Origin: Candidatus Aenigmatarchaeota archaeon
Lineage (GTDB): Archaea; EX4484-52; B79-G9
NCBI GenBank assembly: GCA_023142905.1
Contig: JAGLIP010000010.1
Location: forward strand, 1-12,609
Direction: 5' to 3'
Length of the DNA: 12,609 nucleotides
Shown: piece after piece, positions 1 to 12,609 of the stretch
Layout: every line of letters begins with the position of its first letter
Numbering within the stretch: position 1 is the first letter of the stretch
Made by a program: the position numbers and the translations under genes
The notes under the pieces: generated by a model
Database searches by the model: none
What the model was told of the DNA's origin: nothing
The model's input: only the letters and a program-made list of their open reading frames with translations

Positions 1-1
1 C

Positions 2-73
2 CTGCTCTTACATCCCAGTAAGGGAGATAAAACAAATATGAAGTTATCCGCCCTTAAAGAGCAACATGTCTAA
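2..73 (+). CDS. Possible 3' end of an unidentified CDS
   Basis: Frame 2 is open from the window edge to a TAA at 71-73 and gives 23 residues ending in KLSALKEQHV. The composition is protein-like, but 23 codons are too few to name a family. The same bases can form a nested stem (4-62), so this may be a structured RNA or intergenic DNA instead. No promoter or start is visible because the gene would begin outside the window. If real, it ends about 50 bases before the transposon insertion and would be convergent with rtcA in the uninterrupted chromosome. Confidence 0.3.
   Translation: MLLHPSKGDKTNMKLSALKEQHV
4..66 (+). other. Nested inverted repeats, possible RNA fold
   Basis: GCTCTT (4-9) pairs with AAGAGC (57-62), TAAGGG (19-24) with CCCTTA (51-56), and GATAA (26-30) with TTATC (44-48). 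That makes 17 pairs in register, with a 9-nt one-sided bulge (10-18) and a 13-nt loop. An ACA trinucleotide follows the basal stem at 64-66. This loosely recalls an archaeal H/ACA guide RNA, but a proper two-sided guide pocket is missing. It overlaps a possible CDS tail, so RNA function is only a suggestion. Confidence 0.25.
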
Positions 74-115
74 AGTTGTATACATATATTATCGCCAATC
101 ATATATATAGTTTTC

Positions 116-124
116 GGTCAATTT
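116..124. repeat. Target site duplication, left copy
   Basis: GGTCAATTT directly abuts the left inverted repeat and is repeated in the same orientation at 5534-5542. The match extends to 11 bp (115-125 versus 5533-5543) if the terminal base of each inverted repeat is counted as target. Confidence 0.85.
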
Positions 125-141
125 GGCTTTGTGTAAAAAGT
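125..141 (+). repeat. Left terminal inverted repeat, 17 bp
   Basis: GGCTTTGTGTAAAAAGT is the exact reverse complement of 5517-5533. Its inner part contains the TGTGTAAAAAGT motif that recurs in both ends. Confidence 0.9.
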
Positions 142-180
142 AGCGTTTGTGTATAAAGTCGGGAGTCTGTGTAAAAAGTT
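130..180 (+). repeat. Left-end triplicated 12-bp motif
   Basis: Three copies in one orientation: TGTGTAAAAAGT (130-141), TGTGTATAAAGT (148-159) and TGTGTAAAAAGT (168-179), spaced 18 and 20 bp start to start. The spacing is roughly two helical turns, which would place them on one face of the DNA. They are likely transposase or accessory-factor binding sites. The last copy overlaps the stop codon of the specificity-subunit gene. Confidence 0.75.
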
Positions 181-682
181 ACTTTATTGTTTTATCTAGT
201 AGAGAATTTGTTTCTTCTAAAGCAGATTCTAAGCGTTTTTTAATTATTTGTAGTATTTTATAATTTTTCAATTCTTTTAACTGTGTATTCATATCAGGAA
301 CATCAATATTCAATTCGTTAACAAGTTCTCGATTTAAATAACTTACTCCTTCCTTACTAGTTTGAACCTCACGAAATAAATGTCTTAATTTGAAAACAAC
401 CCATTCCAAAGATATTTTATCCCTCCATTCAGGTAATGGAATTATAACTGCGGTATTATTAGCATCAAATAAATTGTATTGAATATAAACATCTCCATCA
501 TTATTTCCTTTTGTTGGATAAGTTATACATGGTAAATCCTTATTTGAAACAAGTGATTTACCCCAATACCCCTTTAATTCATTTCGACCAGTCAATACGG
601 GGATTTTACCTTCTAAGATATAAAGCTCTTCATCAGTTATTTGATGCCCTTGTTTGATATTAAACATCTGATTTAATTTCAT
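179..682 (-). CDS. Half-size restriction-modification specificity subunit (single TRD)
   Basis: A 167-residue HsdS-type protein that should give DNA target recognition to the methyltransferase encoded just upstream. Residues 1-130 form one target recognition domain: the FNIKQGHQIT opening followed by GKIPVLTGRNELKGYWG is the usual start of such domains. Residues 131-165 are a leucine- and lysine-rich helix like the conserved spacer helix. Standard HsdS proteins have two TRDs and two helices in about 400 residues, so this is a natural half subunit. It is not visibly truncated: it has its own start with a GAGGTG ribosome site and a normal stop. The family precedent is that half subunits pair to read a palindromic two-part site. 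The start overlaps the end of the methyltransferase gene by 23 bases, suggesting coupled translation. The stop lies in the transposon's left-end repeats. Confidence 0.8.
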   Translation of the reverse strand: MKLNQMFNIKQGHQITDEELYILEGKIPVLTGRNELKGYWGKSLVSNKDLPCITYPTKGNNDGDVYIQYNLFDANNTAVIIPLPEWRDKISLEWVVFKLRHLFREVQTSKEGVSYLNRELVNELNIDVPDMNTQLKELKNYKILQIIKKRLESALEETNSLLDKTIK

Positions 683-2687
683 TTATTTTTTTCACCTCTG
701 TTTGTAGTTTCTTTACTCTTTTTTCAAATTCAATAAGTGTAATGTTTTTTGCTTCATAAGGTCTTAACCAATATTCAGGCATAAGTGTCATATAAGTATC
801 ATTAATAATTTTTGATATATCTAAAAAACCACATTTTCTTAATTTCCGTTTTATGTATTTATCATCAATCCATTCAGTACCCTTCGTTAGAGAATCATCA
901 AATGTACCCCAACGACCCTCAAGTTTTCCAACCACCTCTTCACCATTTGTGCGCACCCAACTTAAAATTTCATTATGCAACCATCCAGTTTTATTGTTTC
1001 TTTTTTTTGTAGGGAATCGTTTATCAGAATTTGCTAAACCGTCATTATCTATAATATACGCCCAAATCGGTTTTTTCTGAATTTTTGTAATTGTTTTACT
1101 CCTTTTTGTAAAAAACAACGCATAAGTCTTTTCTTTTGTGTATGGGGCAAAAGCGAACTTTGGGAGGGAAACAATATAATCAATATTGCATTTTTCTAAC
1201 AAATCTTTCCTAAATTTCTTATATGTTGGATTTTCAAGAACGCCATCAGGAGTTATTACGCAAGCTTTTCCACCAAGTTTAAGTAATTTTATTATCTTAC
1301 ATAAAAAAGCAATCTCAGTTCTTACTGTTGAAATTGAACTTGTTTCAGCTTTAATTGTACCGTTACCGTATGGCGGATTCGTTATAATATAATCATATTC
1401 TTTATATTTCCATATTTTCTCAGGGTTCAAACTATCATCACGAAACATATTTGTGTGTCCGTCGCCAACTAAAAACATATTGAGTTTGGTTCGCGAAATA
1501 TTTTCTTCACGAACATCAACACCATAAAAACAAGTTTTTGATATAAATTTCTCTGCATCTTTGTTTAATGTATCACTTTGCAGATAATTATTGTGCAATA
1601 CCTTAAAACACTCTGTTAAAAATCCACCCGTACCACATGCGAGGTCTAAAATAGTAAATTGTCGTTCTTTATTAAAAAATTTTTCATCTTTCAAAAGAAG
1701 TTTTGCAAATATGTGCGCATAAGGTCTTCTTGTAAAATATTCACCGAACTGTTTTTTTTCTTTCTTTGAAGCAAACCTTTCATAAACCGCACCAAATAAA
1801 TCGAAACCGCAACCATGAAGTGGTTTCATAGAATCAATTATATTATAAATATCAACAACATAATTTTTATGAATTTTTGATTTCTGCCCATTTGAACTAG
1901 AAATTAGTTTCCTAACAACATCCATCAACTTTTTGAAATCTCTGAAATCGGTCTCAGAGTCTAATCTTTGTATATATTGAACTAATTTCGCTATAACAAC
2001 TTCAGATTTTTCATCATTACAGTCAGACCAATAGATTTCAGATTCGTCTTTCGTTTTTTCGATATTTGATTTTTCTTCAAAATATTCTAACGCGATAAAA
2101 CCAATTGTAAAATCTATTTTTTCAACAGCATTTTCAAAATTGATGGCGCGATAAATTCTTGCCAATTCCCATAACTTCTTGTTAAATGTCGCCTCAGAAA
2201 TTGTTGATGCAGAATCAACACTTGTATGTATATTGAGCATTTCTGGAGTTTTCTGTAACCCATTTTTAATTAAACGAAGAATATCAATATTTTGAAATTC
2301 TCTGATGGGATTTCCATTTAGTATTATTTCTTTACCCAGATAACCATTATAGAAAATTGAAGTTTTACAATTCGTTACAATAAAATACGGTATTTTTAAT
2401 TTTTCTGATTTTTCTTTTCCTTGCTTAATTGCATCTTTCCAATCGGCATCATCTATCGAACAATTGTCTTTGACTTCAGCATAAGCAACTAAATTCTGAA
2501 CAAATTGAGTTTCATTTTCTCCATCAAATTCGACTTCAGAAATCAATAAATCTGGTCTTTTAATTCCGGTGTATTTTTTGAAAGTAGTGTCGTTGACTAT
2601 TTGTTTTGAAGGTATACTTAATTGAGCAACTAAAATATCCTCAATTAATCTTCTAACGGTCAACGCTTCTCTTTTCGTCTTAACCAT
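660..2687 (-). CDS. Fused restriction nuclease and adenine methyltransferase, BcgI-like
   Basis: A 675-residue protein predicted to cut and methylate DNA in one polypeptide. Residues 1-140 are a PD-(D/E)xK nuclease domain of the HsdR_N/type IIG kind: P45-D46, then E71-V-K73, followed by a helix (QGKEKSEKLK) and IPYFIVTN strand typical of the fold. Residues 165-330 are the helical HsdM-like N-terminal region, ending in GEYFTRRPYA. Residues 340-540 are an N6-adenine methyltransferase core with SAM motif LDLACGTGGF (347-356) and catalytic NPPY (437-440). The C-terminal helix (645-675) probably contacts the specificity subunit. BcgI subunit A has this same nuclease-methylase order with a separate S subunit. 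No HsdR helicase gene is in the window, so the cleavage activity is probably this N-terminal domain. AAGGAG lies 7 bases before the ATG. Whether the system is type IIB or IIG, and its target, cannot be read here. Confidence 0.85.
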   Translation of the reverse strand: MVKTKREALTVRRLIEDILVAQLSIPSKQIVNDTTFKKYTGIKRPDLLISEVEFDGENETQFVQNLVAYAEVKDNCSIDDADWKDAIKQGKEKSEKLKIPYFIVTNCKTSIFYNGYLGKEIILNGNPIREFQNIDILRLIKNGLQKTPEMLNIHTSVDSASTISEATFNKKLWELARIYRAINFENAVEKIDFTIGFIALEYFEEKSNIEKTKDESEIYWSDCNDEKSEVVIAKLVQYIQRLDSETDFRDFKKLMDVVRKLISSSNGQKSKIHKNYVVDIYNIIDSMKPLHGCGFDLFGAVYERFASKKEKKQFGEYFTRRPYAHIFAKLLLKDEKFFNKERQFTILDLACGTGGFLTECFKVLHNNYLQSDTLNKDAEKFISKTCFYGVDVREENISRTKLNMFLVGDGHTNMFRDDSLNPEKIWKYKEYDYIITNPPYGNGTIKAETSSISTVRTEIAFLCKIIKLLKLGGKACVITPDGVLENPTYKKFRKDLLEKCNIDYIVSLPKFAFAPYTKEKTYALFFTKRSKTITKIQKKPIWAYIIDNDGLANSDKRFPTKKRNNKTGWLHNEILSWVRTNGEEVVGKLEGRWGTFDDSLTKGTEWIDDKYIKRKLRKCGFLDISKIINDTYMTLMPEYWLRPYEAKNITLIEFEKRVKKLQTEVKKINEIKSDV
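693..698 (-). promoter_or_regulatory. Ribosome binding site of the specificity subunit
   Basis: On the minus strand GAGGTG lies 10 bases before the ATG at 682, inside the end of the upstream gene. It supports this ATG over the in-frame one five codons later and points to independent or coupled initiation. Confidence 0.6.
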
Positions 2688-2756
2688 CAGGATTCTCCTT
2701 CTAAAAACATTTTTATCGTTTGTTTTACAAATTCCGCCTTTATTATCATTAATTAA

Positions 2757-2791
2757 CCTATTTATACATTATTCTTAATCCATTTATAATA
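2757..2791 (-). promoter_or_regulatory. Candidate promoter of the restriction-modification operon
   Basis: In the 132 bases between the winged-helix gene and the methyltransferase, the minus strand has two TATA-like boxes: TATAAATAGG (2757-2766) and TATTATAAATG (2781-2791). Either would give a leader of about 50-75 nt carrying the strong AAGGAG site (2695-2700). Read-through from the regulator genes upstream is also possible. Confidence 0.4.
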
Positions 2792-2819
2792 GTATGTAGA
2801 CCCTATAGTGCCAATATAA

Positions 2820-3032
2820 TCAACCGTCAAACATAGCATAATTAACTACCCATGTCTTCCTTAATGTCCTTTTTTGTAATATCACAAGATTATGCCTTTG
2901 CAATATCTCCAAATTGTTTTTTACAGTTATCCAGCTTATATGCGACACTTTCGCAATTTCATTAACTGTTGTCGGTTTTCTTATCCTATGCATTGCCTTT
3001 AAAATATCTCTTTGTGTTCTACTCAGAGGCAT
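2820..3032 (-). CDS. Small winged-helix DNA-binding protein
   Basis: A 70-residue protein with a helix-turn-helix: SRTQRDILKAMHRIR forms helix 1, TTVNEIAKVSHIS and WITVKNNLEILQRHN form the helix-turn and recognition helix, and NLVILQKRTLRKTWVVNY resembles the wing. It is short for a repressor and probably works as a dimer. The start overlaps the end of the AbrB-like gene by 14 bases, so the two are co-translated. Their place next to the transposase promoter, in the same direction as the restriction-modification operon, suggests they control transposase and/or restriction gene expression. The specific target is inferred. Confidence 0.7.
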   Translation of the reverse strand: MPLSRTQRDILKAMHRIRKPTTVNEIAKVSHISWITVKNNLEILQRHNLVILQKRTLRKTWVVNYAMFDG

Positions 3033-3270
3033 TTTTAATCAACTCAATTTTAAGTTCTGGTTTTTCATTAAATTTTGAAGGAATAGTGACTGTGAACTTT
3101 ATTTTGTCTGTCTTTGGTTCGAGATTCATTGTTTTCGCTATTTTCGCGGGAATCCTAACAGAATATTGCCTTTTGTCATATATAATTTTCGCGTCTTTTT
3201 CAATAATTTCTGGTTCGGCTTCCATTTCCTTTTTCAAATTTAGCAATTCGTCTTTATTTATCTCATTCAT
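3019..3270 (-). CDS. AbrB/SpoVT-like DNA-binding protein
   Basis: An 83-residue protein. Residues 29-45 (IYDKRQYSVRIPAKIA and on) match the swapped-hairpin AbrB-type motif, in which a short strand leads into R-x-P-x-K-I and a short helix. Residues 1-27 are an acidic, probably helical extension, and residues 50-83 are strand-rich. Such proteins are common archaeal regulators and antitoxins. It is the first gene of a two-gene unit with the winged-helix protein. A TATA box about 27 nt upstream of the ATG implies a leaderless mRNA. It faces the transposase across a 137-bp divergent region that holds paired operator-like repeats, which makes it a candidate repressor of transposition. An antitoxin role was considered, but no obvious toxin partner is present. 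Confidence 0.7.
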   Translation of the reverse strand: MNEINKDELLNLKKEMEAEPEIIEKDAKIIYDKRQYSVRIPAKIAKTMNLEPKTDKIKFTVTIPSKFNEKPELKIELIKNASE

Positions 3271-3292
3271 GCATATAATTTAGGTCGAGAAA

Positions 3293-3302
3293 CTATATAA
3301 AA
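3293..3302 (-). promoter_or_regulatory. TATA box of the AbrB-like/winged-helix unit
   Basis: TTTTATATAG on the minus strand is centred about 27 nt before the ATG at 3270. This places transcription start at or next to the start codon. Confidence 0.6.
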
Positions 3303-3323
3303 CTACCGATTATCTATACAAAA

Positions 3324-3345
3324 TAGGACGAAAATGTCGATACAT
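3324..3345 (+). promoter_or_regulatory. Operator-like repeat, copy 1
   Basis: This 22-bp segment beginning TAGGACGAAAATGTC matches 3374-3395 at 18 of 22 positions, offset by exactly 50 bp. Each copy has a GAC-N6-GTC dyad. Copy 1 touches the upstream edge of the transposase TATA box. Confidence 0.55.
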
Positions 3346-3364
3346 TTATAAAGGTTTGTGACCT
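3345..3364 (+). promoter_or_regulatory. Transposase promoter with short palindrome
   Basis: TTTATAAAG (3345-3353) is a good archaeal TATA box about 60 nt before the transposase ATG. It predicts a start near 3375 and a leader of about 33 nt containing an AGGTG ribosome site (3396-3400). A further inverted repeat, AGGT-N5-ACCT (3352-3364), directly overlaps the box. Confidence 0.55.
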
Positions 3365-3373
3365 ATAATATAG

Positions 3374-3395
3374 TAGGACGAATAAGTCTAAACAT
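3374..3395 (+). promoter_or_regulatory. Operator-like repeat, copy 2
   Basis: This copy begins TAGGACGAATAAGTC and starts at the transcription start expected from the transposase TATA box. A protein bound here and at copy 1 would block the promoter. The small regulators encoded divergently are the obvious candidates. Confidence 0.55.
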
Positions 3396-3407
3396 AGGTG
3401 ATTCAAA

Positions 3408-4610
3408 ATGAACAAACACGAAATGCAGGCGAGAAAAGAACGGGGTCTTATGATTGCGAAAACAGCGAGAATTGAAAAAACAGACAATGGCTGGAAAGTT
3501 CCAAGCCAATACGGTAATGGCACATATACCGTTATCAGCAACGGTTTCGAGGCAAAATGCAACTGCCCTGACCACGAGAAAAGAAAATGCAAGTGCAAGC
3601 ACATATTCGCTGTTGAGTTCATGGTCACAAAACAGGTTGATAATGAAGGCAATGTAACAATAACGCAGACAGTAAGAAAGACTTATAAACAGAATTGGAA
3701 CGCTTACGACAACGCGCAGACAAACGAAAAACAGCATTTCATGAAACTGTTAAAAGACATAACAGGCAATATAGAACAGCCAGAATACGCCTTTGGAAGA
3801 CCTACTTTACCTATAAGCGACATGATTTACAGTTCAGTCCTTAAAACATACACCACATTCTCATTAAGACGGTTCATGAGCGACATTGAGACGGCGAAAG
3901 AGAAAGGATATGTCGAAAACAAGCCATGTTACGCATCTGTTGGTCATTTCATGCAGAGAGAAGACATAACGCCTGTTTTAAGCGAAATGGTGGCTCTTAC
4001 AAGCGCACCATTAAAGGCAGTTGAGCATGACTTCGCCATTGACAGCACAGGATTCGGAACAAGCAATTTCCAAAGATGGTTCTCTTTCAAGCATGGAAAG
4101 GATATTAATTCAAGAAGATGGGTCAAATGCCATTTCATGACAGGCGTTAAGACAAATATAATCTCAAGCGTTAAGGTAACATCCGAATTTAACAATGATT
4201 CTCCCGAACTTAAAGGATTAGTTGCGAAAACGGATGAAACCTTTGAAATGGATGAAATATGCTGTGACAAGGCGTATTCTTCAAGGGATAACCACAAAAT
4301 AATTGCACAAACAGGTGCAACGCCTTTTATCCCTTTCAAGAAAAACGCAACAGGCAAATCAAGAGGTTCTTTAATTTGGAGTAAAATGTATCATTATTTT
4401 ATGCTGAACAACAACGAATACATGGAACACTATCACAAGAGAAGCAACGCTGAGACAACAGTTCATATGGTAAAATCAAAGTTCGGCGACAGGGTAAGAA
4501 GCAAATCATGGACTGCACAGGTCAATGAGGTATTATGCAAGATAATCTGCCACAATATATGCGTGGTTGTTCAGGAAATGCATGAATTGGGGTTAAACCC
4601 TCAATTCTGA
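3408..4610 (+). CDS. SWIM zinc finger DDE transposase (IS4-like superfamily)
   Basis: A 400-residue transposase. Residues 45-66 are a SWIM zinc finger, C51-x-C53 followed by C63-x-H65, with an extra C61. Residues 70-200 are a mixed region that probably binds the element ends. The catalytic RNase H-fold core follows, with D212 in IDSTGF, D287 in CCDKAY and E349 in KRSNAETTVHMVKSKFG; this last block is the YREK-like region typical of IS4/IS5-type enzymes. All three acidic residues are present and the frame is intact, so it could be active. It has its own promoter and an AGGTG ribosome site 7 bases from the ATG. No second pair of inverted repeats was found close around the gene, which supports it acting on the 125/5533 ends. 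I could not place it in a named IS family. Confidence 0.85.
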   Translation: MNKHEMQARKERGLMIAKTARIEKTDNGWKVPSQYGNGTYTVISNGFEAKCNCPDHEKRKCKCKHIFAVEFMVTKQVDNEGNVTITQTVRKTYKQNWNAYDNAQTNEKQHFMKLLKDITGNIEQPEYAFGRPTLPISDMIYSSVLKTYTTFSLRRFMSDIETAKEKGYVENKPCYASVGHFMQREDITPVLSEMVALTSAPLKAVEHDFAIDSTGFGTSNFQRWFSFKHGKDINSRRWVKCHFMTGVKTNIISSVKVTSEFNNDSPELKGLVAKTDETFEMDEICCDKAYSSRDNHKIIAQTGATPFIPFKKNATGKSRGSLIWSKMYHYFMLNNNEYMEHYHKRSNAETTVHMVKSKFGDRVRSKSWTAQVNEVLCKIICHNICVVVQEMHELGLNPQF

Positions 4611-4620
4611 ATCTGATTGA

Positions 4621-4710
4621 TTATATTTTAATAATACCTAGTGAAATCAAAATTATTACTACTAATACCGCCACAACAACATATAAAAAAATATCATTTT
4701 TTAGATTCAT
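4621..4710 (-). CDS. 29-residue single-pass membrane peptide
   Basis: This short frame encodes a peptide beginning MNLKNDIF, followed by an almost unbroken hydrophobic stretch rich in V, I and L (residues 8-27) and ending in KI. It should form one membrane helix. The start overlaps the end of the two-TM gene by 17 bases. A GAGGT ribosome site lies 8 bases upstream (in GAGGTAGAAAGAAATG), which argues that it is translated. Its end lies 10 bases from the convergent transposase stop. Tiny membrane peptides of this kind can be toxins, holin-like factors or subunits of a membrane complex. The function is not known, and such a short frame could be chance. Confidence 0.5.
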   Translation of the reverse strand: MNLKNDIFLYVVVAVLVVIILISLGIIKI

Positions 4711-4966
4711 TTCTTTCTACCTCTCTTTCTTTTTCAATTGCTTCAAGTTTTTTAATTTCCTTACTTAATTTTTTGTTAGTGTGGTAAATATAAAATACGA
4801 TGATAATTAACAAATATCCGATAGTTGCAATTAATTTTGTTATTATCTCAATTTCTAATTTAAAGGAACTAAAAAACCCCCATATAGCCATCAAAGGAAC
4901 TAAAATAGCACTTAATTTGGTGAGAAAAATAGATAATTCAGTAAAAAAACTGTTATCGTCACTCAT
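4694..4966 (-). CDS. Two-TM membrane protein with charged helical tail
   Basis: A 90-residue protein from the ATG at 4966. An in-frame TTG three codons upstream, directly after the previous stop, is an alternative start. It has two hydrophobic helices (about residues 12-35 and 43-62) separated by a short loop with acidic residues. A highly charged tail (about 63-90: K and E in KKLSKEIKKLEAIEKERE) is probably a cytoplasmic coiled coil. No family is recognised. The layout resembles small membrane effectors and small phage-encoded membrane proteins. Close packing with the PD-(D/E)xK-like gene upstream (ATG 10 bases after its stop) and the 29-residue peptide downstream suggests one transcript and a shared role. 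Confidence 0.6.
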   Translation of the reverse strand: MSDDNSFFTELSIFLTKLSAILVPLMAIWGFFSSFKLEIEIITKLIATIGYLLIIIVFYIYHTNKKLSKEIKKLEAIEKEREVERNESKK

Positions 4967-4975
4967 TTTAATCAA

Positions 4976-5383
4976 TCAAATATCTTTAAAATAGTAAAAA
5001 GCAATATTTTTAATTTCCCATTTTTTTGCAACGGCTAATGCTTTATTGGAACAGTCTTTAGGCGTATATACTCTGAATTTATATCCTGCTGTAGAAAAAG
5101 CAGTATATTGTTCTTTTGTATGTTCTGTATCAATTGAGTCACAAGTCTCAATTTCTATTATTATTTTCTCTCCATCTATAATCCCAACAACATCTGGAAT
5201 CATATTATTTATGGATTCTGGTTTTGGATAACCATTTATATCCGCAGAAATGACTTTGTCAACCCGTTCTGTAACCCTTTTAAGTAATTTTTTATGAATT
5301 TCGTCAGTTGGCATAACTAAATTAAAGCAACTGACTTTTAAATATTTGATTAATGATTGAATTATTTTTTTTGTTTTTTTCAT
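4976..5383 (-). CDS. PD-(D/E)xK-like protein with altered catalytic motif
   Basis: A protein of 135 residues from the ATG at 5383, which has GGTGAT 5 bases or so upstream. In-frame upstream starts exist at 5395 (ATG) and 5407 (TTG). It begins with a basic helical region (KKTKKIIQSLIKYLK). It then has PDVVGIIDGEKIIIEIETCDS: a PD, a hairpin, then EIET where an active nuclease of this fold normally has (D/E)xK. The HTKEQYTAFSTAGYKFRVYTPK block that follows fits the helix and strand after the active site. The fold assignment is reasonable, but activity is doubtful because lysine is replaced by threonine. It may bind DNA or use a variant site. It is the first gene of the leftward three-gene unit, with a TATA-like box near 5430, and lies about 90 bases inside the right end of the transposon. 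Confidence 0.6.
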   Translation of the reverse strand: MKKTKKIIQSLIKYLKVSCFNLVMPTDEIHKKLLKRVTERVDKVISADINGYPKPESINNMIPDVVGIIDGEKIIIEIETCDSIDTEHTKEQYTAFSTAGYKFRVYTPKDCSNKALAVAKKWEIKNIAFYYFKDI

Positions 5384-5421
5384 ATAATCACCCATTTTTA
5401 ATTCCAAAGTCTGTCATCTGT

Positions 5422-5435
5422 TCTTAAAATTATAG
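5422..5435 (-). promoter_or_regulatory. Candidate promoter of the right-hand cargo unit
   Basis: ACTATAATTTTAAG on the minus strand is TATA-like. It would start transcription near 5403, giving a leader of about 20 nt with the GGTGAT site before the ATG at 5383. Confidence 0.4.
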
Positions 5436-5470
5436 TATTCTGCCCGAAAACTCCTGTTTCTGTTCCATTT

Positions 5471-5528
5471 TGTGTATAAAGTCCCTATTGTGTGTATAAA
5501 GTCGGCTCTTTTTTGGACTTTTTACACA
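5471..5528. repeat. Right-end triplicated 12-13 bp motif
   Basis: TGTGTATAAAGTC occurs at 5471-5483 and 5491-5503 in the same orientation as the left-end copies. The terminal copy at 5517-5528 is inverted (ACTTTTTACACA). The 20-bp spacing of the two direct copies matches the left end. The second direct copy and the inverted terminal copy can form a 13-bp stem with one mismatch around a 12-nt loop (5491-5503 with 5516-5528). Confidence 0.75.
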
Positions 5529-5533
5529 AAGCC
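5517..5533 (-). repeat. Right terminal inverted repeat, 17 bp
   Basis: ACTTTTTACACAAAGCC is the perfect inverse of the left end. It lies 16 bp from the stop codon of rtcA. Confidence 0.9.
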
Positions 5534-5542
5534 GGTCAATTT
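5534..5542. repeat. Target site duplication, right copy
   Basis: GGTCAATTT abuts the right inverted repeat. It lies just downstream of rtcA, whose reading frame (stop codon at 5550-5552) is untouched. Confidence 0.85.
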
Positions 5543-5549
5543 GATAACC

Positions 5550-6551
5550 CTAAAAAGAAATTAAATTAGTTCGATAATCGATATTGAATCTCTTGTTGAC
5601 AAACTGTTCTGTAACCCATATGTTTGTTTCAGTATGCTGTGTGGTCTTTTCAACTTTAATTACCCCACCTGCAAACGCAAGATAGGGCATAATCTGGTCT
5701 GCAAGATTTCGGTCAATAGGTGCTTTGGATTCAAGAATCTCAGCCAATGTGTCACATGCCACAGAACCTACTTTATCTGCCGGAACACCCCGTTCGCCAA
5801 GGTCATCTGCACCAACCCTGGAGTTTTTGCCTCTGCCCCAAAGGACGACGGCACTTCCTGGACAATCACATTCAACATATTCTTCTTTTATATATATTTC
5901 TCGTTCAATTTGTTTTTCTGCTGCTTTTTTTTGCCTTTCTGTAACATGTGCCGCCATAAGGCTTTTGGATGCAATGGACAATCCAAACAACTTCAAATCC
6001 TCTTGTTTTTGCAATTCAAATGGATTCAGCTTTTTTGGCGGCGATATTGTTACTAAAACTTTTGCGCCGCCTTTAGGATAAAACCCATGCCTTAAAACAG
6101 AAATGTTAAAATCATAACCTATTTTTGAAAGAATCGGTCTTAACACTTCCTGTGTGTATGTAATCGGCGGTGCCCACTTACCGAAAGTTGCACCGCCGTC
6201 AATTGTAATTGTAATTGGTTTTTTTAAGTGCCACCCCACAATAAGTATGGCTTGCAAAACAAGGCTTACAGATGCTGCTGTCGGAACTGCCACATGAATG
6301 TCCTTATTGGATAAACTGCTAGGATAAAACTCAATTTCTTTTGAGCCTAAAAAAACGCCTTTTGTCTTTGCATTGCACATTTTCGCAACTGCGGTTATTG
6401 CACATATATGCTGGCTTTTAAGACCGGGAGTGCATCTTTTTGCTCGGATGTTTGTTATTTTCACAGGCACGCCCATAACAGCGGACAGTGCAGCCGCAGT
6501 TCTTACAATCTGGCCGCCACCCTCTTTATATGAACCGTCAATTGTCAACAT
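5550..6551 (-). CDS. rtcA: RNA 3'-terminal phosphate cyclase
   Basis: A 333-residue enzyme that converts an RNA 3'-phosphate to a 2',3'-cyclic phosphate using ATP, through a covalent histidine-AMP intermediate. The family is clear from the opening IDGSYKEGGGQIVRTA, CTPGLKSQH (40-48), GFYPKGG (157-162) and the C-terminal TTQHTETNIWVTEQF, where H306 is the predicted nucleophile. The length is usual for archaeal members. The gene is divergent from tyrS, with 64 bases between the starts. A TATA box centred about 26 nt before the ATG predicts a leaderless mRNA. The transposon inserted 7 bases after the stop codon, leaving the protein whole but replacing its 3' flank, so the transcript may now run into the transposon's right end. 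Confidence 0.93.
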   Translation of the reverse strand: MLTIDGSYKEGGGQIVRTAAALSAVMGVPVKITNIRAKRCTPGLKSQHICAITAVAKMCNAKTKGVFLGSKEIEFYPSSLSNKDIHVAVPTAASVSLVLQAILIVGWHLKKPITITIDGGATFGKWAPPITYTQEVLRPILSKIGYDFNISVLRHGFYPKGGAKVLVTISPPKKLNPFELQKQEDLKLFGLSIASKSLMAAHVTERQKKAAEKQIEREIYIKEEYVECDCPGSAVVLWGRGKNSRVGADDLGERGVPADKVGSVACDTLAEILESKAPIDRNLADQIMPYLAFAGGVIKVEKTTQHTETNIWVTEQFVNKRFNIDYRTNLISF

Positions 6552-6570
6552 AAATACAATCTTCGTGTTT

Positions 6571-6583
6571 AAAGATATAAATC
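6571..6583. promoter_or_regulatory. Shared TATA region for divergent rtcA and tyrS
   Basis: AAAGATATAAATC reads as a TATA-type box on both strands. It is centred about 26 nt from the rtcA ATG (leaderless). It is about 39 nt from the tyrS ATG, leaving a leader of about 12 nt with an AGGTG ribosome site (6605-6609). A single box may therefore serve both genes. Confidence 0.5.
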
Positions 6584-6615
6584 TGGCTTGTCAAATTATC
6601 CAACAGGTGTATTAG

Positions 6616-7584
6616 ATGAATATCACAGAACAGATGGCTCTTGCAAAAAGAAACACAGTTGAAATTGTAACTGAATCGGAGCTTAAAGACATTCTTTCAA
6701 AAAAAAAGCATCCTGTGTGCTATTGTGGGTACGAGACTTCCGGGGCCGTGCACCTAGGGCATGCGGTGACCATAACAAAGCTTATGGATCTTGAAAAAGC
6801 AGGATTCAAGGTAAAAGTGCTTTTTGCAGACTGGCACACTTGGCTTAACCGCAAAGGGGATTGGGATTTTATCCATAAGACAACAAAGATATGGGAAAGA
6901 TCATTCAAAAGCATGGGCCTTAAAAATGCAGAGTTTGTTTTAGGCTCAACATTTCAAAGAAAAATGAGCTATGTCGATGACCTTCTTTCAATGTCTCTTG
7001 ACACTACAATAAACAGGGCGCTTAGGAGCATGCAGGGAATCGCGCGGGATATTGAGCATGCGCATGTTTCTCAAGTAATCTATCCTTTTATGCAAATAGA
7101 GGATATAAAAGCACTTAAAGTGGATGTCGCTGTTGGTGGAATAGAGCAGAGAAAAATACACATGCTAGGCCGCGAACTTACACCAGTTCTTAATTATGGA
7201 CCTTTTGCATGCATACACACACCATTAATTCCTTCACTTCAGGGACCTAGCGGCAAAATGTCATCCTCAAAACCAGAAACAATGATATCTGTTGCTGACA
7301 GTGATGAAGAGATAAAGAAAAAAATCAAAAAATCGTATTGCCCCGAAGGAATTGTTCAAGACAATCCAGTCTTGTCCATAGCAAAACTTCTTGTTTTCCC
7401 ACGAATTGATGTACTAGAAATCAAACGACCGGAAAAGTTCGGAGGAACTGTTCAGTTTGAAAATTATGACTCTCTTGAGAGCGCTTTTGTAGATAAAAAG
7501 CTTCACCCGCTTGATCTTAAAAACAAAATTGCCGATGAAGTCTCTGATATTTTCGAGCCAGTACGCAGACATTTTAAAAAATAG
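6616..7584 (+). CDS. tyrS: Tyrosyl-tRNA synthetase, archaeal type
   Basis: A 322-residue class I synthetase that charges tRNA-Tyr. The class I signatures are HLGH (46-49) and KMSSSK (214-219). The tyrosine pocket is recognisable: CGYETSG (Y39) and VIYPFMQIEDI, whose Y156, Q160 and D163 correspond to the known tyrosine-binding residues of the Methanocaldococcus jannaschii enzyme. The VAVGGIEQRKIHMLGREL block is typical of archaeal TyrRS. The enzyme has the short archaeal/eukaryotic C-terminal domain without a bacterial S4-like extension. AGGTG lies 6 bases before the ATG. It is convergent with the following gene, with a 16-base gap containing a T-run that may end transcription. Confidence 0.95.
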   Translation: MNITEQMALAKRNTVEIVTESELKDILSKKKHPVCYCGYETSGAVHLGHAVTITKLMDLEKAGFKVKVLFADWHTWLNRKGDWDFIHKTTKIWERSFKSMGLKNAEFVLGSTFQRKMSYVDDLLSMSLDTTINRALRSMQGIARDIEHAHVSQVIYPFMQIEDIKALKVDVAVGGIEQRKIHMLGRELTPVLNYGPFACIHTPLIPSLQGPSGKMSSSKPETMISVADSDEEIKKKIKKSYCPEGIVQDNPVLSIAKLLVFPRIDVLEIKRPEKFGGTVQFENYDSLESAFVDKKLHPLDLKNKIADEVSDIFEPVRRHFKK

Positions 7585-7600
7585 TCTCACATTTTTAGAA

Positions 7601-8533
7601 TTATTTGTTCTCAAATCGTTCAATCATATAGGTTCTACAATAATCTATTGCGTTTTTTGTAAGCCATACGCTTGTTGACTTACCGGTTCGCTGCTTTATT
7701 GTAAGCCCTAAGTCTTCCATTTTCTTAACACTTCTTGAAATATATGATGTTTTGGACTGGTCAGCCACATCATACATGCCCTCAACAATAGATTTTATTG
7801 TAATTGCACGGACTTGCCTGTCTGCCTGAACATTGTACAAATAAAAAAGAATTTGTTTTTCCTGGGGTGCAAGTGCGTCATTTTGTTTACTAAACTTTAC
7901 TAAACTAAACTTTACTAAACTTGGTTTAGTTAACTTTACTAAACCGGATTTGGTTAAGCTTTGGTTTGGTTTAGTGTTTTCATCATATTCGCTGCCATCG
8001 TTTTCAAAGTTAACTGCTTTTTGGTTTAGTTTAGTTAAGTTAACTGAATTGGTTAAGTTTGCCGCAGGTAAGTTAACTGAATTGGTTAACTGTTCTTCGG
8101 AGAAAATTTGTGTTTTTGAAAGATTTTTGATTGATTGTTCAATCATATACATGCGATCATTTAACCCCATTTCATGTTCATGATTTTGTATTGCCAATTT
8201 ACCAAAAATCATTAAATCTTTCTGATTTTGATGCATGAGATTTATTTTATTTTCAAGAACCGCCATATGCTGCTGTAACTGAGGTATTTGAGGGTTGTTT
8301 TGTGTGTGCTCAGAGTTCATCTTTTGCTTAATATCAACAATGTCTTCATCGAGAACGCATAGTGCGTGCGTGAAATCGTTAATTTTAGAATCTGTCTCTT
8401 TTTTGCTTCCAAGAATTAATTCGCGTAAATCAGCGTATTTTAGGTCTGTTGTTTTTTTGAGCTCCAAAAATTGTTCTTTGTTTTGATATTCTCTTTTTTT
8501 TGCCGAATTCCTAAAAAATATCCCGAATACCAT
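7601..8533 (-). CDS. Coiled-coil protein with C-terminal winged helix and internal repeats
   Basis: A 310-residue protein of unknown function. Residues 12-145 are charged and helical, probably coiled coil. Residues 148-216 are low complexity, with in-frame repeats: TNSVNL twice, then LVKL, LVKF, LVKF. Residues 222-302 form a winged-helix domain (LAPQEKQILFYLYN, ITIKSIVEGM, SYISRSVKKMEDLGLTIKQR, then VWLTKNAIDYC), like MarR-type or replication/partition DNA-binding domains. I chose the ATG at 8533. The frame extends 20 codons upstream to 8593, but that stretch contains the likely TATA box (8561-8571). A DNA-binding, oligomerising protein whose gene also holds a dense array of short repeats suggests chromosome organisation, partition or autoregulation; this is inference. 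It is divergent from serS. Confidence 0.7.
   Translation of the reverse strand: MVFGIFFRNSAKKREYQNKEQFLELKKTTDLKYADLRELILGSKKETDSKINDFTHALCVLDEDIVDIKQKMNSEHTQNNPQIPQLQQHMAVLENKINLMHQNQKDLMIFGKLAIQNHEHEMGLNDRMYMIEQSIKNLSKTQIFSEEQLTNSVNLPAANLTNSVNLTKLNQKAVNFENDGSEYDENTKPNQSLTKSGLVKLTKPSLVKFSLVKFSKQNDALAPQEKQILFYLYNVQADRQVRAITIKSIVEGMYDVADQSKTSYISRSVKKMEDLGLTIKQRTGKSTSVWLTKNAIDYCRTYMIERFENK
7885..8089. repeat. Array of short A/T-rich repeats inside the winged-helix gene
   Basis: TTTACTAAAC occurs at 7886-7895, 7896-7905, 7911-7920 and 7935-7944. Related inverted forms (GGTTTAGTTAAC, GGTTTAG, GGTTAAG) lie at 7923-7934, 7974-7980, 8023-8029 and 8051-8057. A 20-bp direct repeat, AAGTTAACTGAATTGGTTAA, is perfect at 8037-8056 and 8070-8089, offset 33 bp (11 codons). 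The segment 7923-7945 is close to a palindrome. The spacing and the many repeats look like an iteron or operator array, or like repeat slippage kept in frame. Confidence 0.75.
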
Positions 8534-8560
8534 ATTGCTCTTTAATGTATTGTTACGCCA

Positions 8561-8571
8561 AAGATATAAAT
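8561..8571 (-). promoter_or_regulatory. TATA box of the winged-helix gene
   Basis: On the minus strand ATTTATATCTT matches the rtcA TATA region closely and is centred about 33 nt before the ATG at 8533. It lies within the upstream extension of the frame, which argues against the earlier start. Confidence 0.5.
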
Positions 8572-8590
8572 GTTGGTGCATATAAGCATG

Positions 8591-8605
8591 CATATATCGA
8601 TATAG
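8591..8605 (+). promoter_or_regulatory. TATA region of serS
   Basis: CATATATCGATATAG places a TATA-like box 25-32 nt before the serS ATG at 8628, fitting a leaderless or nearly leaderless mRNA. Confidence 0.45.
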
Positions 8606-8627
8606 TTAATATGTTGCTTGTGATTTT

Positions 8628-9917
8628 ATGATTGATATCAATACCCTCAGAGAAACCCCGGAAATTGTAATAAAAGATCTTGAAAAACGAGGGGATACAG
8701 AAAAGATAAAATGGATTGCAGACATTCTTGAAAAAGACAAGAAATGGCGGCAATCAATAAACAAGGTAAATGAGCTTAGATGCAAAAGAAATAAGGTTTC
8801 TCTTGAGATATCCGCCCTAAAAAAACAAAAAAAAGATGTGGTAGAAAAGATAGCTGAAATGAAAAAAGTCGCATCAAAAATAGATGCGCTAGAAAAAACA
8901 ATAGAAAATGTGAGAGTTAAGATAGAATATATGCTTTTGCGACTTCCAAATATCATGCATGAGAGTGTACCTAAAGGTGTGGATGATACAAAAAATGTTG
9001 AAGTGCGGGCAGTCGGTAAAATAAAAAAAATGTCTTTTGAGCCAAAAGACCACATAGATATTGGCGAATCGTTGGATCTTTTTGATTTAGAACGAGGGGC
9101 TAAAGTATCTGGTGCGCGGTTTTATTACCTTAAGAATGATGCCGTTCTTTTAGAGTTTGCAATAATCCGTTTTGTGGTTGACCAACTTCAAAAAGATGGA
9201 TATGAACTGATTATACCACCCATGCTTGTAAGAGAAAAAGTAATGGAAGGTGCGGGATTTCTTCCAGTTGGTGCTGAAGACATATACAAGATAGAAAATG
9301 AGGATTTGTATCTTGTCGGCACATCTGAGCAGGCGCTTGCAGGAATTCATATGGGTGAGACACTTGATGCAGCCACACTACCTAAAAAATATGCAGGGTA
9401 TTCAACATGCTTTCGAACCGAAGCCGGAAGTCATGGGCGAGACACAAAAGGAATATTTAGAGTGCATCAATTTGAGAAAATTGAGATGTTTGTCTACACC
9501 AATCCTAAAAAATCGTGGGCTGAACACGAAAAATTAATCAAAACAGCAGAAAAACTGGTTAAAATGTTAGAGTTACCGTATAGAGTGGTAAATATATGCA
9601 CCGGAGATTTGGGTGTTGTTGCCGCAAAAAAATACGATATTGAAGTGTGGCTCCCAGGGCAGGGAAAATATCGGGAGCTTGTATCCTGCAGCAACGATAC
9701 GGATTATCAGGCAAGACGGCTGAATATAAAATACCGCAATAAAGTTGGCGAGTCTCCGGCAGGCCTTGTGCATACGCTGAATTCAACTGCTGTTGCTGTT
9801 ACACGAATGATTGTCGCAATACTTGAAAATTACCAGCAAAAAGACGGTTCTGTTAAAATACCTAAAGTTCTTGTTCATTATATGGGTGGAAAGACAAAAA
9901 TCATAAAATCCGCATAA
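8628..9917 (+). CDS. serS: Seryl-tRNA synthetase, common (bacterial-type) class
   Basis: A 429-residue class II synthetase that charges tRNA-Ser. Residues 26-103 form the long antiparallel coiled-coil arm that holds the tRNA-Ser variable arm. The catalytic core has LVGTSEQAL (229-237), the serine-binding TxE segment; motif 2 FRTEAGSHGRDTKG (262-275) with R263; QFEKIE (281-286); and motif 3 NSTAVAVTRMIVAILE (385-400) with R393. The long arm and the motif set identify the common SerRS rather than the rare zinc-dependent type found in some methanogens. The start is supported by the upstream TATA region. The downstream gap to topA is 156 bases and holds no gene that I can see. Confidence 0.95.
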   Translation: MIDINTLRETPEIVIKDLEKRGDTEKIKWIADILEKDKKWRQSINKVNELRCKRNKVSLEISALKKQKKDVVEKIAEMKKVASKIDALEKTIENVRVKIEYMLLRLPNIMHESVPKGVDDTKNVEVRAVGKIKKMSFEPKDHIDIGESLDLFDLERGAKVSGARFYYLKNDAVLLEFAIIRFVVDQLQKDGYELIIPPMLVREKVMEGAGFLPVGAEDIYKIENEDLYLVGTSEQALAGIHMGETLDAATLPKKYAGYSTCFRTEAGSHGRDTKGIFRVHQFEKIEMFVYTNPKKSWAEHEKLIKTAEKLVKMLELPYRVVNICTGDLGVVAAKKYDIEVWLPGQGKYRELVSCSNDTDYQARRLNIKYRNKVGESPAGLVHTLNSTAVAVTRMIVAILENYQQKDGSVKIPKVLVHYMGGKTKIIKSA

Positions 9918-10040
9918 TATTCTCTAGTGTGTGATGTTCCTGTTTCGCGCTTTTGATGTTGTTCTATTGTTCTTGTGAGTGTATTTTATTGCACACAAAC
10001 CATAAACCCTTGTGTTTTTGTGAGAATTGCACGCGCTAAA

Positions 10041-10050
10041 GTTTTATAAA
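10041..10050 (+). promoter_or_regulatory. TATA box of topA
   Basis: GTTTTATAAA is centred about 28 nt before the ATG at 10074, so the transcript is probably leaderless. This supports that ATG as the start. Confidence 0.6.
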
Positions 10051-10073
10051 CCTACTATTCTTTTATTTATGGT

Positions 10074-12134
10074 ATGTCTTACGAGCTTATAATTGCGGAA
10101 AAGCCAAGTGCCGCAAGAAAAATTGCAGCAGCACTTGCTGAAGGCAAAACAGACACAATAAAAGAAGGCACAGTATCGTACCAAAAATTTTCCCGTTCAG
10201 GAAAAGAGGTTATTGTTGCCTGTGCGGTTGGCCATTTGTATGGTGTTGCTGCAAAATCAAAAAACTGGACTTATCCGGTGTTTGATGTTGAGTGGCTTCC
10301 GACATCAGAGATAGACAAAGGTGCGGCATTCTCAAAAAAATATCTTTCGGTTATAAAAAAACTTGCAAAAAAAGCAGACTCGTTTGTGATAGCAACAGAC
10401 CTTGATATTGAAGGCGAGGCAATCGCATATAATATTCTTCGCTTCGCATGCCAAAAAGAGGATGCTAAAAGAATGAAATTCTCAACACTCACTAAAAATG
10501 AACTTTCAAATGCATTCGATAATGCGCTGCCGCATATATTTTTCGGGCTTGCTGAGGCCGGAACAACACGACATGTGCTTGATTTTTACTTCGGTATCAA
10601 TGTATCTAGGGCACTAACACTTGCAGTCCGCCATGCTGGAAGATATAAACTTCTAACTGCTGGTCGTGTTCAGGGTCCGGCGCTTAATTTTCTTGCAAAA
10701 AGAGAAAAAGAGATAGCTGCATTTACAGCAGTACCTTATTTTGAGCTTGAATGTGTGACAAAAGACTTTTCTGCATTGCATGAAAAAAACCCATTTTCTA
10801 AAAAAGAGGATGCGAATCTAATTTTTGAAAAATGCAAAGGCAAAAATGGTTCTATTTTAAAAACAGAGCGCAAAAAATACAAGACTCGCCCACCAACTCC
10901 ATTTAATCTAACGGATTTGCAGGTTGAAGCACACAAGCTCTTTGGAATAAAACCTTCAGAGACTCAAAAAATCGCACAAACCCTATACGAGCAGGCAACA
11001 ATAAGCTATCCTAGAACAAGCTCTCAAAAACTGCCGATAGCTCTTGATTTCAAGACAATAATAACAAAACTTAAGAGCAATATAGAATACGATAAGCTTG
11101 CAAGTATTATTTTGAGCACAAACCTTGTGCCTAATGAAGGGGCTAAAACAGATGATGCTCACCCGGCAATACACCCAACAGGGGAGAGACCAAAGGATTT
11201 GGGCGCTCGCGACAAAAAAATATATGACTTGATTGTAAAACGATTCTTAGCTGTTTTCGGAGAAGCTGCTGTTAGGGAATCAATGACAATTGCCATCTCT
11301 GTTGAGAATGAAATCTTTGTTGCAAAGGGTGCAAGAACCGTTGAAAAAAACTGGTTTGAATTGTATGCGCCCTATGTTAAGCTTGATGAAGTCACACTTC
11401 CGGACTTAAAAGAAGGGGATAATATTGATATCCGCAAGATAAATCTGCTTGAAAAAGAAACAAAACCGCCTAACCGGTACAATCAGGCATCGATAATACG
11501 GGCGCTTGAAAAGCGCGGTCTTGGAACCAAGGCAACGCGCGCAGAGATTGTCGGCAACCTATACAAACGGGGATATCTTGTTGAGGACAGAATTGAAGTC
11601 ACATCGTTAGGTCTTAAGGTTATAGAAACACTTGAAAAATACTGCCCCGAGATAATTTCAGAAGAGCTTACGCGCCGTTTCGAAAATGAGATGGTTGAAA
11701 TAGAGAAAGGAAAAACAAAGGGTGGTGCGGTTCTTAAAGGGGCTGAAAAAGAACTTACGAGCATACTTGAAAAATTCAAGAAAAATGAAAAAGAAATCGG
11801 CACATCGCTTCTTGATTCTGCCATGAAAGCACAACAGGAAGAAAATTTTCTTGGAAAATGCCCCAAATGCGAAAAAGGAAATTTGCGCATGATAAAAACC
11901 CGTATGGGATCCAGATTTGCCGGATGTTCATCATATCCTGAATGCAAAAACACATATTCTCTGCCAAAAGTAGGGCTTATAAAAAAAACAGATAAAGTTT
12001 GCGAAGTCTGTAAAACCCCAATCATAACGGTCATAAACAAAGGCATTAAACCATGGTCTTCATGCATTGACTTAACATGTCCTACAAAGGCATTGGTCAA
12101 AAAACCGATAAAACCGGCAGAAGATAAGAAATAG
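10074..12134 (+). CDS. topA: DNA topoisomerase I (type IA)
   Basis: A 686-residue type IA topoisomerase that relaxes negatively supercoiled DNA by single-strand passage. The N-terminal Toprim domain begins LIIAEKPSAARKIA and carries the metal-binding DLDIEGE motif (D109, D111, E113). Further blocks are TAGRVQGPAL (195-203), the active-site segment ISYPRTSSQ with the nucleophile Y312 and R314, HPAIHPTG (363-370), and YNQASIIRALEKRGLGTKATRA (469-490). Two C4 zinc ribbons close the protein: C596, C599, C618, C624 and C643, C646, C664, C669. The lysine-rich tail is usual. All catalytic residues are present. It follows serS in the same direction but has its own promoter. Confidence 0.94.
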   Translation: MSYELIIAEKPSAARKIAAALAEGKTDTIKEGTVSYQKFSRSGKEVIVACAVGHLYGVAAKSKNWTYPVFDVEWLPTSEIDKGAAFSKKYLSVIKKLAKKADSFVIATDLDIEGEAIAYNILRFACQKEDAKRMKFSTLTKNELSNAFDNALPHIFFGLAEAGTTRHVLDFYFGINVSRALTLAVRHAGRYKLLTAGRVQGPALNFLAKREKEIAAFTAVPYFELECVTKDFSALHEKNPFSKKEDANLIFEKCKGKNGSILKTERKKYKTRPPTPFNLTDLQVEAHKLFGIKPSETQKIAQTLYEQATISYPRTSSQKLPIALDFKTIITKLKSNIEYDKLASIILSTNLVPNEGAKTDDAHPAIHPTGERPKDLGARDKKIYDLIVKRFLAVFGEAAVRESMTIAISVENEIFVAKGARTVEKNWFELYAPYVKLDEVTLPDLKEGDNIDIRKINLLEKETKPPNRYNQASIIRALEKRGLGTKATRAEIVGNLYKRGYLVEDRIEVTSLGLKVIETLEKYCPEIISEELTRRFENEMVEIEKGKTKGGAVLKGAEKELTSILEKFKKNEKEIGTSLLDSAMKAQQEENFLGKCPKCEKGNLRMIKTRMGSRFAGCSSYPECKNTYSLPKVGLIKKTDKVCEVCKTPIITVINKGIKPWSSCIDLTCPTKALVKKPIKPAEDKK

Positions 12135-12227
12135 ATTCGGCTAAGAAAAAGTCTTAACACCATAACTAAAAAAATTAGTCACCCACACAAATAATCATTT
12201 CTTAATAGATTAATCACACCACAGTAA

Positions 12228-12241
12228 CTTATTTAAAATAC
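12228..12241 (+). promoter_or_regulatory. TATA box of the purM-like gene
   Basis: CTTATTTAAAATAC is centred about 25 nt before the ATG at 12259, again fitting a leaderless mRNA. The 124-base gap after topA otherwise holds only a weak inverted repeat (ACTAA/TTAGT, 12164-12178). Confidence 0.5.
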
Positions 12242-12258
12242 TATAATTCATTTAAAAC

Positions 12259-12609
12259 ATGGCCGAAAAAACATACGCTGATTCGGGAGTAAATGTTACA
12301 AACGATGACGAATTCTCAAAAATTATGGTCAAACACTCAAAAGCAACACATAATAATATACCCCATCCTGTTAGAAATAATATTGTAAATATTAGACCGG
12401 ATCTAAGTCTGGTCTATAGTGTAGACGGTATAGGAACAAACATAACACATGCGGTTCTTGTAAACGACCATAGCACAATGGCATCTAAATTACTATCAAT
12501 GGTTCTAGACGACATATCTATAATTGGCGCTGAACCGATTACGATTTCAAATTATCTTGCCGTAAGTGATATGAACCCAGATTTAGCAAAACAATTAGGT
12601 GTGTCTCTC
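12259..12609 (+). CDS. purM: PurM-like AIR synthase homologue, 5' part only
   Basis: The first 117 residues of a protein of the PurM superfamily, cut by the window edge. PurM makes aminoimidazole ribotide in purine synthesis using ATP. Supporting blocks are TYADSGVNV near the start (compare the usual TYxxAGVD), SVDGIGT (54-60), and a segment LDDISIIGAEPITISNYLA that aligns with the NDIxxxGAEPLFFLDYLA region of PurM. Two differences from standard PurM are visible. The glycine-rich GGFxGLF-like stretch expected before the DGxGT motif is absent, and the usual GTK is GTN (N61). It may be a divergent PurM or a related ATP-using paralogue. The rest of the gene is needed to decide. Confidence 0.7.
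   Translation, partial: MAEKTYADSGVNVTNDDEFSKIMVKHSKATHNNIPHPVRNNIVNIRPDLSLVYSVDGIGTNITHAVLVNDHSTMASKLLSMVLDDISIIGAEPITISNYLAVSDMNPDLAKQLGVSL

Follow-up and report, generated by a model that had tools for sequence, protein, structure and literature searches.

By what route restriction systems pass between archaea with small genomes is, to our knowledge, an open question. It is raised by a contig of Candidatus Aenigmatarchaeota archaeon (assembly GCA_023142905.1, contig JAGLIP010000010.1; genome G000 and contig C2 in our numbering, in which loci are given L numbers), where a transposase gene and restriction-modification (R-M) genes lie together beside rtcA. Do these genes form a single unit that moves, and is such a unit found elsewhere? 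We analysed the stretch of 12,609 nucleotides from position 1 to 12,609 (hereafter, the window) and found that it holds one intact, recently inserted DDE transposon at positions 125-5533 (given size 5,418 bp). That it is one mobile unit with an R-M system as cargo, as a sequence-only reading of this DNA had proposed, is confirmed by its ends, by its target site duplication (TSD), by an empty site in a relative and by related elements. We further propose, with a probability of about 0.86, that it belongs to a DDE transposon family spread over several groups of archaea, whose commonest payload is an R-M system and which would move by the mechanism set out below. The boundaries of the element are the following:

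116-124, no strand: left TSD copy, GGTCAATTT, present in one copy only at the L082 empty site
125-141, plus strand: left terminal inverted repeat, GGCTTTGTGTAAAAAGT, 17 bp
5517-5533, minus strand: right terminal inverted repeat, exact reverse complement of GGCTTTGTGTAAAAAGT, 17/17 bp
5534-5542, no strand: right TSD, second copy of GGTCAATTT, 9/9 bp match

Both the perfect inverted ends and the flanking direct repeat had been read from the sequence and are borne out, as is the landing site: the stop codon (5550-5552) of a putative rtcA lies 7 bp beyond the right TSD copy. The name rtcA is that given in the sequence-only reading, and it agrees with the sequence of the gene. In the assembled genome of the host (1.04 Mb, 218 contigs, 80% complete), the mismatch-free 17-bp end is found at these two places only. 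With up to three mismatches, it is found at four more places outside the window, which is not above a control using the backwards pattern. The element is present in one copy in this assembly, the sole other match being 55 bp long at 80%.

The proposed check, a search of related genomes for the rtcA region without the insert, revealed an empty site. Genome G008 (L082), of the same genus and with an rtcA protein that is 87% identical, aligns with the two flanks as one stretch and has a single copy of GGTCAATTT. G006 (L083) is likewise contiguous across the junction, but its target sequence is different, and in five further same-family genomes the spacing from the conserved left flank to rtcA is too small for 5.4 kb. 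Because these junctions are contiguous or their spacing is too short, the 5.4-kb insert is absent from all seven same-family genomes in which rtcA was found (10 were searched, and in three rtcA was not found). Two outcomes had been named as speaking against a mobile unit, namely the same genes in relatives with no empty site, and ends occurring independently of each other. We found instead an empty site in the relatives, and exact ends that never occur apart in the assembled genome of the host. The contig begins only 115 bp left of the TSD, which could point to a chimeric contig of this metagenome-assembled genome (MAG) or to a chance pair of repeats. However, a genome of the same genus has the two flanks joined without a break, only about 5e-8 pairs combining a 17/17 and a 9/9 match are expected to span the transposase under a simple composition model, and the same architecture is seen again in 22 other loci. 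An artefact is thus extremely improbable, and the empty site and the recurring architecture rule it out in practice.

The left flank also contains an intergenic block, ACATCCCAGTAAGGGAGATAAAACAAAYATGAA, beyond the 3' end of rtcA (window 1-48, L082 1363-1410, and L083-L088). It is nearly invariant in 8/8 sequences (the window and seven relatives), rtcA itself being 42-59% identical in six of the seven relatives that carry it. Searches of this block gave nothing over the Rfam threshold, no tRNA and no covariation.

Between the ends, the element encodes seven proteins:

179-682, minus strand: short specificity (S) subunit, 167 aa; PADLOC Specificity_I, E 4.8e-10
660-2687, minus strand: fused R-M enzyme, 675 aa; Pfam N6_Mtase, E 2.8e-34
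2820-3032, minus strand: winged helix-turn-helix (HTH) regulator, 70 aa; Pfam matches below cut-off; homologues in L059, L060 and L080
3019-3270, minus strand: AbrB/MazE-like regulator, 83 aa; Pfam MazE below cut-off; homologues in L053, L059, L060 and L080
3408-4610, plus strand: DDE transposase, 400 aa; DDE_Tnp_1 domain; SWIM-like Cys/His N-terminus (SWIM below cut-off)
4694-4975, minus strand: small membrane protein, 93 aa; a crude scan shows two hydrophobic segments
4976-5407, minus strand: 143-aa protein, no family; to the eye alone, PD...EIE looks like a nuclease motif

The transposase is intact, as had been read: it is one open frame with the residues D212, D287 and E349, and genes lie on both sides of it. 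Its assignment as IS4-type stands in part. The IS4 insertion sequence (IS) family is defined by the signature Y-(2)-R-(3)-E-(6)-K (YREK) and by duplications of about 10 bp (7-13) (PMC2266710). The signature is present without frameshift (Y342, R345, E349 and K356), and the duplication in the window is 9 bp long. On the contrary, the ends, GGCTTTG, are not among the CA-, CAT-, CT- and AATR-type ends of the IS4 subgroups in the table excerpted from PMC2266710, and the NCBIfam IS4_1 model gives 24.5 bits, below its curated cut-off of 115 bits. The nearest model is NCBIfam IS5_2, with 136.9 bits for the window and 130.7 bits for L015, just below (for the window) its 140-bit cut-off. The element carries non-transposition genes inside one pair of ends, like elements of the transporter IS or mobile insertion cassette (MIC) kind. 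Among the seven proteins, Pfam recognises one DDE_Tnp_1 and no second transposition protein, with no TnsA/B/C-type machinery, and a sequence search of the Protein Data Bank (PDB) with the transposase gave no match.

The fused R-M enzyme and its specificity subunit, both claimed from the sequence alone, are supported by Pfam, PADLOC and motifs. The enzyme has an N-terminal PD-(D/E)XK type motif (D46, E71-x-K73) and a methyltransferase NPPY motif (437-440), and all these residues are invariant across 10 aligned sequences, the window's included. Nuclease and N6-methyltransferase motifs thus lie in one chain, which characterises Type IIB/IIG enzymes, the nuclease match (HSDR_N_2, E 5.6e-5, 23.6 bits) falling just under the 25-bit Pfam cut-off. 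Its relatives in the PDB comprise type I M subunits, EcoKI M among them, together with RM.BsaXI, a Type IIB/IIG enzyme. Like BsaXI, the system associates a fused nuclease and N6-methyltransferase with an S moiety, but in the window S is separate and short; homologues of the R-M enzyme fused to a Methylase_S domain also exist. The S subunit has no Pfam match, is about half the usual length and aligns weakly with the longer S of L013 (319 aa) and L070 (414 aa); its length and this alignment suggest that it carries one target recognition domain.

The remaining genes were only partly as predicted. The two regulators are present, but their status as cargo is doubtful. Indeed, in L053, L059, L060 and L080, beside other R-M kinds, homologues of one or both are likewise placed upstream of the transposase and divergent from it, and the pair may belong to the transposon backbone rather than to the cargo. 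In the presumed membrane/nuclease-like set, the small membrane protein holds, but a nuclease nature of the 143-aa protein is not supported: it has no Pfam or PADLOC match and only two homologues besides itself, and its fold, modelled from three sequences, is of low confidence, with a mean predicted local distance difference test (pLDDT) score of 48.8. The GC content of the transposase gene (40.0%) is that of the adjoining host genes (5543-7584, 40.1%), the S and R-M genes being at 28-30% and all the non-transposase genes of the element at 26.5-31.9%. Beyond these host genes, a gene at 7601-8593 (minus strand) encodes a 330-aa protein whose C-terminal half is 57% identical to a match near rtcA in L083; inside this gene, the stretch 7882-8089 has short repeats of the AACTTTACTAAAC type in direct and in inverted orientation.

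Is the window's transposon a solitary case? Searching genome contigs with its transposase gave five relatives, in Woesearchaeota, Nanoarchaeota and a 'Euryarchaeota' MAG. A transposase profile matched 5 of 34 genomes of the window's own phylum (E <= 1e-20) and, at E <= 1e-100, 26 of 371 genomes in the phylum of L012, 9 of 389 in the phylum of L011 and 17 of 352 in the order of L012 (overlapping the L012 phylum set). We read 50 loci, picked by their transposase and not by their cargo; the wider set of transposase relatives comprises 7,088 scored proteins. Elements were bounded by an exact 9-bp TSD, 17-bp ends with at most six mutual mismatches, and GGCTTTG with at most two mismatches, a rule written after the first 19 bounded elements had been seen. 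By this rule, 23 of the 50 loci hold a bounded element, versus 0/50 in a mirrored-flank control. L061 and L062 being one element present in two genomes, these make 22 distinct elements, which measure 2,359 to 9,992 bp and none of which is a bare IS (0/22). The count of 23 allowed 9-bp duplications only; when 8, 9 or 10 bp were allowed, 9 bp was taken in each of the 19 elements bounded (the L079 pair being second-ranked). Two more loci, L060 and L069, have paired ends and no exact duplication. The 21 junctions compared, with L061 and L062 taken separately, show no strict target preference: a long open reading frame (ORF, 197-552 aa) spans the insertion site in three (L053, L104 and L109), and only short ORFs (108-131 aa) span it in two more (L015 and L066). 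We found no account of this transposon family in the literature searched (open-licence papers).

Three viral contigs also hold the transposase. L022 and L023 are bounded copies with 9-bp duplications in IMG/VR viral contigs, a possible vehicle between hosts. In L013 (6001-7116), the transposase is without a stretch covering part of the SWIM-like region, yet the duplication is exact; this copy may be inactive.

The ends of the family are not simple inverted repeats. In the window they are built as follows:

130-179, plus strand: left end array, three direct TGTGTAWAAAGT repeats at 130, 148 and 168; same layout in several related elements
5471-5533, plus strand: right end array, TGTGTAWAAAGT direct at 5471 and 5491, inverted at 5517

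This architecture, with three repeats on the left, and two direct and one inverted on the right, is typical of the family, L066, L067 and L070 having one repeat fewer per side. The repeats contain a 4-base core that is specific to the element. Indeed, in the 18 distinct elements where two or more repeats can be read, core identity is 0.87 within an element and 0.34 between elements, and 0/10,000 permutations reached as high a value. With their leading TG, the cores include TGTGTA, TGCACA, TGCCCG, TGCCTC, TGCTCC, TGTTTA and TGTTAA, and the core varies inside the element in L013, L104, L106 and L108, among others. We infer that the transposase reads the core, and that ends and enzyme change together. 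The exact array pattern with the TGTGTA core was found in none of 33 other genomes of the window's phylum. One genome, G369, holds two family elements, L067 and L070, with different cores (TGTTTA and TGTTAA) and different cargo. L055 (G005) has decayed: it keeps a TGCTCC array at either end, but no more than a fragment of the transposase; its core equals that of the bounded L054, from another genome of the same genus.

What, then, does the family carry? A DNA methyltransferase is recognised by Pfam in 12 of the 22 distinct elements, and the cargo is varied:

Window, L013 and L070: fused R-M of one family
L011: D12 and HNH
L012 and L079: EcoRI-type methylase with GmrSD/HNH
L015 and L071: IIG-like
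L053: N6_Mtase and S
L061: Type III Mod/Res
L066: HSDR_N-N6_Mtase, HNH and PDDEXK_3
L076, 1543-9092 (oriented): two C5 methylases, Vsr and a GHKL-type ATPase
L104, no methyltransferase found: BglII-type endonuclease and HD protein
L106, no methyltransferase found: BrxC/D-like and Cas4/Csa1-like proteins

R-M systems thus appear to be the commonest payload, and the description of the window's element as a mobile defence island in compact form is borne out by these relatives with other R-M cargo. Related PDDEXK proteins are present in L070, L071 and L076; they may be a case of the solo Cas4 that has been noted adjoining R-M genes in DPANN (PMC5704561).

The association exceeds what genome composition would give. 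In 16 genomes, the hosts of 17 bounded elements outside viral contigs from the first scan (genome sizes rounded except the window's own), 7 of 27 N6_Mtase genes lie inside elements that make up 0.48% of the bases, a 54-fold enrichment (binomial P 5e-11); without the window it is 48-fold (6/26). These genomes contain 31 DDE_Tnp_1 matches, 17 of them family transposases. An N6_Mtase or N6_N4_Mtase gene lies within 8 kb of 9/17 family transposases (a count that includes the window and both L061 and L062), versus 0/14 of the others, some of which are on short contigs (P 0.0012). Could the family simply insert into existing defence islands and pick up an adjacent R-M system through a distant or solo end? 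Solo inner ends are indeed seen in L012, L104 and L108, and in the window the cargo and the transposase are unlike in GC content. However, the 3 kb inspected around the L082 empty site showed no R-M gene, and 20 of the 27 N6_Mtase genes lie outside elements, yet none of the 14 other transposases adjoins one. We regard passive capture as an unlikely explanation.

Two other explanations concern what the payload is for. The transposase tree groups the window with eight others in one clade (support 100/100); seven of the nine carry a methyltransferase, and this one clade has recruited about six R-M kinds. Together with the absence of bare IS elements, and with the ability of R-M systems to stabilise mobile units reported in the excerpts of PMC3031569, this would fit an R-M system that rides mainly as an addiction module: a cell losing the element would die when its unmethylated sites are cut, and the payload would stabilise the transposon whatever its antiviral effect. 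But some elements yielded no R-M (L054, L057, L058 and L067, among others), L106 carries other defence-like genes, and the gene content expected under addiction is largely that expected under defence. We give addiction somewhat less than an even chance. The cargo could instead be kept for host protection, the transposon hitch-hiking. Besides R-M, the elements carry BglII-type, HD/dGTPase-like, BrxC/D-like, Cas4-like and Type III genes, and Tn7-like transposons share this preference, R-M being their commonest defence cargo (PMC8649781, in excerpts). Against it, in most of the small elements a single system can be recognised, rather than an island. This role in host defence has, in our view, close to an even chance.

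Does the payload change? L012 and L079 have R-M pairs that are 90% and 79% identical in protein and 82% identical in DNA over 2,119 bp, nothing outside this block aligns, and their transposases are 46% identical. Since the R-M pair is far closer than the transposases, the cargo moves. In L012, whose end core is TGCACA, there is an inner left-end array at 1900-1954 that has the core TGTGTA, and the shared block starts ten bases away from it; we read this array as a remnant of the element that brought the R-M block. Inner ends are also present in L104 and L108. The side on which R-M genes of the window's type lie also varies: L070 has them on the plus strand, to the right of its transposase, whereas the window and L013 have them on the minus strand, to the left. 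A recent exchange between the window and L013 or L070 was considered and dropped, and recent exchange of an R-M pair is supported by L012 and L079 only. Taken as a whole, the family reads as a cut-and-paste transposon lineage of archaea whose payload would be swappable.

In the mechanism that we propose, the single transposase would bind the repeat arrays through its SWIM-like N-terminus and would move the whole unit by cut and paste, with target cuts staggered by 9 bp. The element-specific core would keep each transposase matched to its own ends, and the divergent regulators would hold the transposase down. The R-M system would methylate and cut DNA, shielding the cell from foreign DNA and penalising loss of the element, and replacement of cargo would follow from the insertion of one element into another, or from recombination between two of them, with solo inner ends left behind. 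A further proposal is more tentative and falls well short of an even chance: these would be an undescribed lineage of DPANN and other archaea, in which a transposase is paired with any available R-M system, the payload being repeatedly replaced by unrelated R-M systems as it penalises excision or loss, and a private end code preventing the mobilisation of relatives.

Several observations weigh against the family as we propose it. No methyltransferase was found in 10 of the 22 elements, whose transposases are distant (L022, L023, L104, L106, L108 and L109), middling (L054 and L067) or close (L057 and L058). In L022, L023, L054, L057, L058, L067, L108 and L109, no R-M system was found among the larger proteins scanned, several proteins of L022, L106, L108 and L109 and many small ORFs falling outside the cargo scan; L109 has a sub-threshold HNH match. 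Not all cargo is intact, the L012 methyltransferase being without the first 83 of 345 profile positions. The window's R-M enzyme is 68% identical to those of L013 and L070, which indicates the same family and no recent exchange, because its identity to the best 120 of 821 relatives, in archaea and bacteria, is 63-72% (one row being the window's own fragment). The two regulators presumed to be backbone have a cargo-like low GC (31.9%). Moreover, 27 of the 50 loci are unbounded, several being cut by contig ends, some decayed and others not bounded. Seven of these 27 were read: five have a DNA methyltransferase gene by the transposase, and in L068 and L111 none was seen by eye. L108 has two possible right ends, the ends of L109 are GGCGTTG, and the L079 pair ranked second in the first scan. 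Finally, the hosts include MAGs.

How does this family relate to known systems? One of the closest likenesses is to IS231/MIC231 of the Bacillus cereus group, IS4 elements with a YREK DDE transposase and extra modular genes between the left end and the transposase; as of 2008, modular passenger genes were reported for IS231 only (PMC2266710, in excerpts). Here, however, the ends are GGCTTTG and not CAT, the duplication is 9 and not 10-12 bp, the hosts are archaeal, R-M is the commonest cargo, and cargo also lies to the right of the transposase; the repeat arrays at both ends may be a further difference. Tn7-like transposons likewise have repeat arrays at their ends and varied cargo rich in R-M and other defence systems, and none was found in archaea according to the excerpts of PMC8649781; unlike them, the present elements have one DDE_Tnp_1 transposase and no Tns machinery was seen. 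In bacteria, R-M systems moved by transposition are known in composite or transposon-like structures, such as PluTI and the Rhizobium leguminosarum VF39SM system. As excerpted from PMC3031569, those are R-M complexes flanked by IS copies, whereas here one unit carries its own transposase between its own ends. In a thaumarchaeal survey, the IS-like transposons described in the part consulted have one or two genes (PMC6563490).

The family offers a vehicle for R-M systems in archaea. Its ends are short, a single gene serves transposition, and the payload, often an R-M system, can be swapped. The family also makes the question of addiction versus defence testable by a simple retention assay. Moreover, if the private end codes are read by the transposases, they would constitute a natural set of paired enzymes and ends.

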